64,000 nucleotides of DNA from Novosphingobium sp. (GTDB taxonomy: Bacteria > Pseudomonadota > Alphaproteobacteria > Sphingomonadales > Sphingomonadaceae). The notes beneath the pieces are model-generated. The model was not told the origin of the DNA. It did not search any database and saw only the letters and a list, made by a program, of their open reading frames with translations. Positions 57,133-64,000 of the stretch are shown piece after piece. A program made the position numbers and the translations under genes. How positions within the stretch are numbered: position 1 is the first letter of the stretch; every line of letters starts with the position of its first letter. Location: contig NZ_JAUYNB010000010.1 of the NCBI RefSeq assembly GCF_030699305.1, forward strand, positions 248,001 to 312,000. Direction: 5' to 3'.

Positions 57133-57807
57133 ATGCAGCATATCGACATCATCCTGACGCGCGAACCGGACGATGGGCTGGCCCCGTATACCCATGACCA
57201 GCTGTCGGTGACGTTCCATCTGTTCGGCCGGACGAGTGACCTGCCCCTGCTGGAAGGCGCAGTGTGGGTGTTTGTCGACTGGGTGCTGCCGAAGATTTCC
57301 GGGCTGGAAATGTGCCGCCAGCTGCGCTGCGATCCGCTGACGGCCAAGGCCCGGATCACGATGGTGCTGGATCAGGACGATCTGGATGCGCGCCGCCGGG
57401 CGTTGCGCGCTGGTGCGGACGATTACCTGATCGGCTTCCCCACCCGGCGGGTGTTGCTGGACCGGGCGCTGTCCAGTCTGGGCAGCATCGGTGAACTGTC
57501 CCGGCGGCAGTCGATCAGCCTGGGCGAACTGACCATCGAGCTGACCGCGTTTCAGGCCCGCTGGCAGGGCCAGCCGATCCGGCTGATGCCCAACGAACTG
57601 CGGCTGCTGCGCTTTCTGGTTGAGCATCCGGGACGGGTGTTCACCCGCCAGCAGCTGATCCAGGCGCTGGGCAAGCATGATTCGCCGATTGATGAACGCA
57701 CGGTCGATGTCTGGGTTGGTCGCCTGCGCCGCGCGCTGGTGACGCACGGGGTCGCCCATGAACTGCGCACGGTGCGCTCGCTCGGCTACGTGCTCGATCC
57801 GGCGTGA
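57133..57807 (+). CDS. PhoB/OmpR-type response regulator with degenerate receiver domain
   Basis: Receiver-like VWVFVDWVLPKISGLEMCRQL...RAGADDYLIGFPTRR; C-terminal wHTH LMPNELRLLRFLVEHPGRVFTRQQLIQALGKHDSPIDERTVDVWVGRLRRAL. Confidence 0.9.
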   Translation: MQHIDIILTREPDDGLAPYTHDQLSVTFHLFGRTSDLPLLEGAVWVFVDWVLPKISGLEMCRQLRCDPLTAKARITMVLDQDDLDARRRALRAGADDYLIGFPTRRVLLDRALSSLGSIGELSRRQSISLGELTIELTAFQARWQGQPIRLMPNELRLLRFLVEHPGRVFTRQQLIQALGKHDSPIDERTVDVWVGRLRRALVTHGVAHELRTVRSLGYVLDPA

Positions 57808-62386: not shown

Positions 62387-62678
62387 GATAGGTCCCCTTG
62401 GGTAAATTCGAGCGACGCGACCGAGTGTGCCGTCGCGACTCGCCAACTAGGGAACCGAGGTGACAGTTTGTTTGCGATTTCTTGACGAAGAATCTATCAA
62501 ACGTGCGACGGAAACGTGACACGCCGTCACACTTCTGCAATTCGAATCAGCCGGTTGCCTGATCCGAACTGCCGAAATCCGGTTTATTGCGCTTTTATGA
62601 CAATTGCGGATTTTTTTTGCACCGCTGCCGGGTTGCCCATACCTTCGCTTCAACAACGTAAAAAAGTGGAGAGATGTC

Positions 62679-63056
62679 ATGGCCCAAACCCTTATCCTCG
62701 CAGTCCTGCTCGCGGCCCAGTCGGCTGCTCCCGCCGTGCTGGTCGAAGCGCGCGGTGGTGACCGGGTGGACGTTGGCTACAGCGAACTCGCCGCCGGTCA
62801 GCCGCAAGCCGCGATTGAGCGGATTCAGGCGAATCGTGAACTCGATGCCAACGATCCGGCCGCGCTGATCAACCTGGGCGCGGCGCACGCGCGGATGGGC
62901 GAAGTGGCCGATGCCCGCGCGTTCCTGTCCGCCGCAATCGCCAGCCCGGACCGCTATGACCTGGAACTGGCCGATGGCCGCTGGATGGACTCCCGCCGCG
63001 CCGCACGGATGGCGATGGGGATGTTGCAAGAAGGCAAGACGCTGGCAGTTCGGTGA
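62679..63056 (+). CDS. small exported TPR-like protein
   Basis: MAQTLILAVLLAAQSAAPAVLVEARGG; YSELAAGQPQAAIERIQANRELDANDPAALINLGAAHARMGEVADARAFLSAAI. Confidence 0.78.
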   Translation: MAQTLILAVLLAAQSAAPAVLVEARGGDRVDVGYSELAAGQPQAAIERIQANRELDANDPAALINLGAAHARMGEVADARAFLSAAIASPDRYDLELADGRWMDSRRAARMAMGMLQEGKTLAVR

Positions 63057-63146
63057 CAATCAGCCGCAACCGGCGTTTCGCGCGCTCGCGCGCACGGACA
63101 CTATAGTTGGCCATTCAGTTCGCATTCTTGTCGGCATGACGAGAGT

Positions 63147-63164
63147 TCGTCACAGAGCTGTCAT
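63147..63164 (+). promoter_or_regulatory. candidate Pho box upstream of the virB1-like gene
   Basis: TCGTCAC-AGAG-CTGTCAT, second half matches CTGTCAT exactly; 35 bp before ATG. Confidence 0.5.
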
Positions 63165-63198
63165 GTAAAAAGCGCATTGCGCCCGCAAGGAGGGCGTA

Positions 63199-63816
63199 AT
63201 GCTGCACAATTCGCCGATTCGAGTACTGTTGGCCGGAATGGTTGCTGCGTGGGCTGTTGCCCCGGCATCCGTCCGTGCCGACGTGCTGGAGATCGGCGGT
63301 GACGGGCATAGCTGGGTTGCGGGTGGTCCCCGCGTGCCTGCGCCCGTTACGTATGCCGCATCTGCCGCGCCCATGGATGGCCCGGCCGCAGCGCAGGCTT
63401 CTCTCACCGAAGTCGATGCCGCTGCCGGTCCGCAGGACTGGCGCGGGCGCGTGGCGGAACTTGCCGCCAAGTATGATATCAGCCCGGCCCTGCTGGAAGC
63501 GGTGGTCTGGCAGGAAAGCCGCTGGCGCACCGAGGCGGTTTCGCCCGTCGGCGCGCGCGGGCTGGCCCAGTTGATGCCGGGGACGGCGCGCGATCTGGGC
63601 GTCAATCCCCACAACCCCAATGCCAACCTGGAAGGCGGCGCACGCTATTTGCGGATGCAGCTCGATGCGTTCGGCGGCGACGTGGAAAAGGCGCTGGCCG
63701 CCTATAACGCCGGGCCGGGCCGTGTGCAGGCCGCCGGGGGAATCCCCGCCATTCGTGAAACCCGGGAATATGTCGCTGCGATTCTGGCGCGCCTGTCCCA
63801 ACCTGTCCGGAGATGA
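63199..63816 (+). CDS. lytic transglycosylase, VirB1-like (SLT domain)
   Basis: ALLEAVVWQESRWRTEAVSPVGARGLAQLMPGTARDLGVNPHNPNANLEGGARYLRMQL...KALAAYNAGPGRV. Confidence 0.92.
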   Translation: MLHNSPIRVLLAGMVAAWAVAPASVRADVLEIGGDGHSWVAGGPRVPAPVTYAASAAPMDGPAAAQASLTEVDAAAGPQDWRGRVAELAAKYDISPALLEAVVWQESRWRTEAVSPVGARGLAQLMPGTARDLGVNPHNPNANLEGGARYLRMQLDAFGGDVEKALAAYNAGPGRVQAAGGIPAIRETREYVAAILARLSQPVRR

Positions 63817-63821
63817 TTGTC

Positions 63822-64000
63822 ATGCGTTCGCTGCGCACCCTGTTTTCCGCCGCCCTGCTTGCTCTTGTGCCGCAAACCGCCTTTGCCCAAACCGCCAACC
63901 CGGCCGGGTCTGGCCCGATCGTGGCCGCGCTTGGCTGGTTGCAGGGCACGCTGCTGGGCAATGTCGCCACTGCTGTCGCGGTGATGGCGGTCGCCGCCGT
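63822..64000 (+). CDS. TrbC/VirB2-like pilin subunit, N-terminus (runs off window)
   Basis: MRSLRTLFSAALLALVPQTAFAQTANPAGSGPIVAALGWLQGTLLGNVATAVAVMAVAAV; signal peptide plus hydrophobic helix, translationally coupled to virB1-like gene. Alternative start at 63813. Confidence 0.75.
   Translation, partial: MRSLRTLFSAALLALVPQTAFAQTANPAGSGPIVAALGWLQGTLLGNVATAVAVMAVAA

Follow-up and report, generated by a model that had tools for sequence, protein, structure and literature searches.

We propose that a type IV secretion system (T4SS) controlled by PhoB, and free of VirB8 and VirD4, has probably replaced the type II secretion system (T2SS) for the release of periplasmic exoproteins in Novosphingobium and its relatives, the secretion step being what we infer. 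Conjugation, DNA uptake and injection are the tasks usually ascribed to T4SSs, and a T2SS-like role in phosphate starvation has not previously been described for such a machine. The operon begins at the end of the window, by which we mean the whole stretch of 64,000 nucleotides that was analysed (bases 248001-312000 of a 582,856-b contig in a genome of 3.36 Mb), and continues into the 271 kb of the same contig that lie beyond it. Its locus is L005, and a window position equals the L005 position plus 60999. The nearest named relative of the window genome is Novosphingobium arvoryzae, with 96% identity in VirB4.

The earlier note, made on the window sequence, had read its last genes as the opening of a virB operon, with an SLT lytic transglycosylase (VirB1-like) overlapping a TrbC/VirB2-like pilin by ATGA. 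The family matches and the overlap agree with this reading (Table 1), and the in-window part of virB2 alone passes the PF04956 cut-off (30 vs 27.9 bits). The operon, followed beyond the window, has the almost gapless gene order virB1-B2-B3-B4-B6-B9-B10-B11; of the genes that the note had suggested looking for there, virB3, virB4, virB6, virB9, virB10 and virB11 were recovered and virB8 was not. VirB4 reaches 723 bits against TIGR00929 (cut-off 643) with its Walker motifs (GPSGSGKT, ILIDEGWKAL) intact in the sequence. The motifs of the ATPases in general are likewise preserved, and so is the Glu of the transglycosylase. With VirB2, VirB3, VirB6, VirB9, VirB10 and VirB11 in canonical order, the system is of the P-type (VirB). 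Between virB3 and virB11 neighbouring genes touch or overlap, so that there is no space for a virB7; a short VirB7 lipoprotein encoded elsewhere would escape detection. As judged from its sequence, the operon is intact and conserved, and it is devoid of virB5, virB8 and virD4. Downstream of virB11 there are genes for a membrane protein, a Dps-like protein, a 6-phosphogluconolactonase, a NUDIX protein and a DinB-type polymerase. The C-terminal part of the membrane-protein gene (L005:9989-10548, window 70988-71547) reads better in another frame, owing to a frameshift or a sequencing error. In Tsuneonella troitsensis two contigs (L057 and L060) end in stretches with near-identical VirB4 genes, reflecting either a duplication or an assembly effect.

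Table 1. Features of the locus in window numbering; the window ends at 64000.
Feature	Position	Strand	Basis and remarks
PhoB-like response regulator, degenerate receiver	57133..57807	+	Trans_reg_C PF00486; start by alignment (mechanical ORF from 57028)
TonB-dependent receptor (TBDR), 889 aa	58013..60682	-	PF00593/PF07715
Putative beta-helix lipoprotein (LIPO), ElpS-like, 535 aa	60779..62386	-	lipobox LAGC, then Pro/Thr-rich tether
Candidate Pho box upstream of LIPO gene, GTGTCACGTTTCCGTCGC	62505..62522	-	11/14
Candidate Pho box upstream of TPR gene, CCGTCACACTTCTGCAAT	62524..62541	+	11/14
Small exported TPR protein, 125 aa	62679..63056	+	PF14559; alignment
Candidate Pho box of T4SS operon, TCGTCACAGAGCTGTCAT	63147..63164	+	12/14, 52 bp before virB1
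virB1, SLT lytic transglycosylase	63199-63816	+	PF01464, E 5e-25
virB2, pilin	63813-64127	+	full protein 104 aa; crosses window end
virB3	64134-64415		assigned by position, size and conservation
virB4	64429-66849		PF03135, TIGR00929
virB6	66846-68045		TrbL
virB9	68042-68833		family match, below NCBIfam equivalog cut-off
virB10	68837-69946		TrbI; family match, below NCBIfam equivalog cut-off
virB11	69943-70938		TIGR02788

VirB8 counts as a core component of the inner-membrane complex, and it is kept by the Ptl system of Bordetella. In the operon none of virB5, virB8 and virD4 was found, and at the usual site of virB8 the genes virB6 and virB9 overlap. We surveyed 201 genomes of the order, 67 of which carry the VirB4 clade (at least 59% identity) and 134 of which do not. 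VirB8 (PF04335) is absent from the entire genome in 48 of the 67, both VirB8 and any PF02534 coupling protein are absent genome-wide in 34, and VirB5 (PF07996) was found neither in the window genome nor in 66 of the 67. Among 26 genomes with the closest sister T4SSs (51-55% VirB4 identity), 25 have VirB8, at most about 2 kb from virB4 in 24 of them. In a tree of VirB4, 48 VirB8-less rows form one fully supported group, with three further VirB8-less rows outside it, the tree being a quick one whose outgroup label is not meaningful. A virB8 hidden in the operon is ruled out by the gene overlaps together with the PF04335 search of whole genomes. The window genome encodes a single VirB8, next to a transfer region of another kind on a separate contig, and two VirD4-type coupling proteins that lie outside the operon on two other contigs (C12, C3). 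At C40:75000-92981 (L104) there is a separate transfer region encoding homologues of VirB8, VirB9, VirB10, VirB4 and VirB11. A VirB8 lent by a second T4SS would be possible in this genome, but 48 T4SS genomes have no VirB8 at all. We found no working T4SS without VirB8 in the searchable literature, and this counts against the explanation that we prefer.

Next to the operon lie an exported TPR protein, a lipoprotein and a TBDR, as the earlier note had described, and beyond them a PhoB-like response regulator. In an alignment with relatives and with canonical PhoB, the receiver of this regulator keeps the phospho-acceptor Asp (VDWVLP) but neither the acidic pair nor the conserved Lys, and the TIGR02154 PhoB model matches it only from model position 50. 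The phoR-pst genes of the window genome are elsewhere (L175), apart from this regulator. No Pfam family was matched by LIPO. Its AF2 model (pLDDT 88, pTM 0.89) is almost all strand and predicts with confidence a beta-helix behind a flexible tether. A Foldseek search of the PDB with this model found nothing but weak matches to beta-helices, all at E of at least 0.001, and we therefore assign no enzyme activity to LIPO; by sequence, neither LIPO nor TBDR has a convincing match in the PDB. LIPO has the features of an ElpS-type lipoprotein, namely a lipobox, a partner TBDR and, in some lineages, linkage to a T2SS. A tandem double-domain form of the lipoprotein, about 910-1040 aa long, is encoded at L108:9287-12184 and in several genomes of family f4, which are T2SS genomes from outside the main family.

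The linkage of TBDR, lipoprotein and T4SS, which the note had offered as an inference, is borne out by conserved gene order in most of 80 relatives of the locus (75-96% VirB4 identity), distributed among Novosphingobium, Erythrobacteraceae, Sphingobium and Caulobacteraceae; one chromosomal neighbourhood recurs in many genera. Its usual order is PhoB-like regulator, TBDR, LIPO, TPR and T4SS, usually with ppk and ppx, and this order is found in nearly all the Novosphingobium loci and most of those of Erythrobacteraceae. In Caulobacteraceae LIPO and TBDR are collinear and upstream of the T4SS. Among the 58 loci with full flanks, TBDR and LIPO are near the T4SS in 49, the PhoB-like regulator adjoins TBDR in 35 (e.g. 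L010-L013), ppx and ppk are present in 47 and at least one phosphate gene in 54, while pst/phoU/phoB, phytase, phnD and pstS occur in a few. As a point against the explanation that we prefer, LIPO escapes detection in about five genomes with the canonical T4SS and lies elsewhere in several others. At the level of gene content, then, the T4SS adjoins a lipoprotein/TonB-receptor/TPR module and phosphate genes, and the conservation of this link indicates the resident envelope system that the note had suspected.

The promoter of the T4SS operon carries a conserved Pho box, in the sense of a match to the sequence pattern. In 78 loci, after fixing the gene starts by alignment, we searched the 160 bp ahead of the opening gene of the T4SS for two CTGTCAY repeats 4 bp apart and scored the match over 14 positions. 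Just upstream of that gene a score of at least 12/14 was obtained in 54 loci and of at least 11/14 in 71, against 0.6% and 3%, respectively, for random stretches of the same loci. For 26 loci without a detected virB1 the region before virB2 was scored instead, and most of them have a box there; no virB1 was detected in the Novosphingobium loci L011, L015-L023, L025-L030 and others, in which the Pho box directly precedes virB2. The VirB8-bearing sister systems have no such box (0/18). Upstream of LIPO a score of at least 12 is reached in 26 of 67 T4SS-linked and 11 of 25 T2SS-linked loci (null 1.8%), and upstream of the TPR gene in 30 of 61 T4SS-linked loci. Over the whole 3.36 Mb genome, the pattern YTGTCAYN4YTGTCAY with at most one mismatch has six matches and a reversed control pattern one. 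The single perfect match precedes pstS in phoR-pstSCA, and the virB1 site is another of the six; besides these two, and leaving out the matches on C8 and C31, none is tied to an exported protein. A PhoD-like phosphatase near one match was rejected, as its promoter would lie elsewhere. Among open papers we found no Pho-regulated VirB system in sphingomonads.

Elsewhere in the class a LIPO homologue is found in the order lipoprotein-TBDR-gspC-gspD-gspE-gspF-gspG, and LIPO-TBDR-gspC/D-E-F-G are collinear in more than 20 loci of the window's own order; some T2SS-linked LIPO copies also have the TPR protein beside them. LIPO lies at most 20 kb from the clade VirB4 in 53 of the 60 genomes that have both, at most 25 kb from GspK in 48 of 65, and never near both. 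T4SS and T2SS nearly exclude each other across the genomes of the order: GspK occurs in 1/67 T4SS genomes vs 77/134 others and GspD in 3/67 vs 99/134, and two of these three GspD-bearing genomes have divergent T4SSs outside the phosphate setting. Among the genera of the main family, 18 have only the T4SS, 16 only the T2SS and two have both kinds. Within the window's genus GspK is missing from all 8 T4SS genomes and present in 5 of the 8 without the T4SS (p 0.026, kinship ignored), although such Fisher values overstate independence because the genomes are related. A tree of LIPO contains at least four changes of T2SS/T4SS label, with T4SS-linked copies nested among T2SS-linked ones. The comparison of sequences thus places the same lipoprotein-receptor pair beside a T2SS in other genomes, and the T4SS seems to replace the T2SS, whose job it has apparently taken over.

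Other VirD4-less T4SSs of the order also adjoin lipoproteins or signal-peptide-bearing proteins. The VirB8-bearing, VirD4-less systems at L097, L099, L110-L112 and L114 lie beside RHS/YD-repeat proteins, several of them with a signal peptide, and frequently have extra virB2 copies. Pairs of DUF1800 (lipoprotein-like) and DUF1501 proteins (L113:944-4227, L117:2254-5892) adjoin two VirD4-less T4SSs, of which a single one has virB8, and the VirD4-less T4SS at L122 stands beside a PLC-type phosphoesterase. VirB8-less T4SSs at L101, L102, L123 and L103 adjoin an EnvZ/OmpR-type two-component system; a dioxygenase-like putative lipoprotein is encoded at the first three, and VirB4 of L103 is broken by a stop.

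On this basis we suggest that, at low phosphate, PhoB would turn on the LIPO module and the T4SS together. Substrates would cross the inner membrane via Sec or Tat, as there is no VirD4 receptor, and a channel of VirB2, VirB9 and VirB10, powered by VirB4 and VirB11, would then move them from the periplasm across the outer membrane, a step as in Bordetella Ptl and the Caulobacter T2SS. The job of the system may be the release or surface display of phosphate-scavenging exoproteins, with LIPO as its leading client or partner and TBDR importing what is released; the bridging role of VirB8 would be dispensable or assumed by another part. The periplasmic uptake of VirD4-less systems such as Ptl, the likeness to a T2SS and the exported neighbours of the sister systems lead us to this PhoB-controlled two-step exporter in the role of a T2SS. 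Pho-type regulation, the missing virB8, virB5 and virD4 and the exchange with the T2SS all go beyond the earlier note. We give an even chance to a wider proposal, in which T4SSs without VirB8, VirB5 and VirD4 form a class built into phosphate nutrition that exports or displays Sec- or Tat-exported periplasmic proteins and was repeatedly swapped with the T2SS at the lipoprotein/TonB-receptor locus, and in which the VirD4-less relatives beside RHS, DUF1800 and phosphoesterase lipoproteins are likewise two-step exporters. If true, a VirB machine can be converted to general secretion in the service of nutrient scavenging, and the system, widespread in culturable, non-pathogenic sphingomonads, offers a natural test of whether VirB8 is needed at all.

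The truncated VirB system might instead import extracellular DNA, to draw phosphate from it or to exchange genes, in the manner of the ComB DNA-uptake T4SS of Helicobacter. DNA import was proposed in 2012 for the same seven-gene operon of Citromicrobium (PMC3338782), Pho control would suit DNA as a source of phosphorus, and ComB has likewise neither VirD4 nor VirB5 (PMC12857230). Unlike the window operon, however, ComB has VirB8 and no VirB11, and the present T4SS trades places with an exporter, the T2SS, beside an extracellular lipoprotein, which makes uptake unlikely in our view. We are similarly sceptical of a starvation-induced, contact-dependent weapon that kills neighbours and frees their phosphate, or of an adhesion pilus that holds cells to surfaces. 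Either would be in keeping with the intact VirB2 pilin and the two intact ATPases, as well as with the exported RHS-repeat proteins of the VirB8-bearing sister systems, but the window locus has no effector/immunity pair, no VirD4 and no VirB5 tip protein, its conserved neighbours are nutrient genes, and the 34 genomes mentioned above have neither VirB8 nor any T4CP.

The homology of the operon to the conjugation components TrwK, TrwE and TrwF could also make it an ordinary relic, left by an integrative conjugative element or by a plasmid transfer region. The locus is however intact and syntenic in dozens of species and has a conserved regulatory site. In agreement with the earlier note, which saw no transfer or integrase genes in the window, the Pfam-annotated or read part of L005, about 16 kb past the window end, showed no relaxase, T4CP or integrase, nor was any close relative seen to have the locus together with a relaxase, oriT and an integrase. 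In a comparison with 72,556 records, the plasmid VirB4 that came closest is only 54.7% identical. With no transfer genes alongside and no plasmid relative of at least 60% identity, the reading as a conjugative element was rejected and that as a remnant is highly improbable; the note's view of a resident envelope system holds, and the locus is a fixed chromosomal one.

Compared with known systems, the operon has its sequence relatives in the R388 Trw T4SS (PDB 7o41, 7o3j), where VirB4, VirB6, VirB9 and VirB10 match TrwK, TrwI, TrwF and TrwE, but Trw is a complete conjugation system and the window locus has no homologues of VirB5, VirB8 and VirD4. Its gene content has been noted before: a T4SS that 'lacks VirB8' is tabulated for two Erythrobacter genomes (PMC2702493), probably of the same kind as that of the window, and the seven-gene virB operon of Citromicrobium JLT1363 (PMC3338782) is the same locus (L064). 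No function beyond the guess of DNA import is given in these papers, nor do they mention a Pho box, the linkage to lipoprotein and TBDR, an exchange with the T2SS or the breadth of the VirB8 absence. A review (PMC12857230) describes VirD4-less T4SSs such as Ptl as taking their substrates from the periplasm. Bordetella Ptl resembles the present system in having neither VirD4 nor VirB5 and in the prior Sec export of its substrates, but it exports a host-directed toxin and has no link to phosphate.

The closest parallel is the elpS locus of Caulobacter crescentus (ElpS/CC0171/T2SS), with its lipoprotein-TBDR-T2SS gene arrangement (PMC2996285) and a T2SS in the PhoB regulon (PMC11208175). In both cases an extracellular lipoprotein and a TonB receptor stand beside a secretion system under phosphate-starvation control via PhoB, a control that is predicted for the window locus; LIPO is likened to ElpS (CC0170) through homologues in the same gene order. 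Deletion of the Caulobacter T2SS blocks the release of ElpS, which still reaches the cell surface (PMC2996285); LIPO thus need not be a direct substrate and may be a partner rather than cargo. What sets the two loci apart is the machine itself, a T2SS in Caulobacter and a VirB-type T4SS in its place here.
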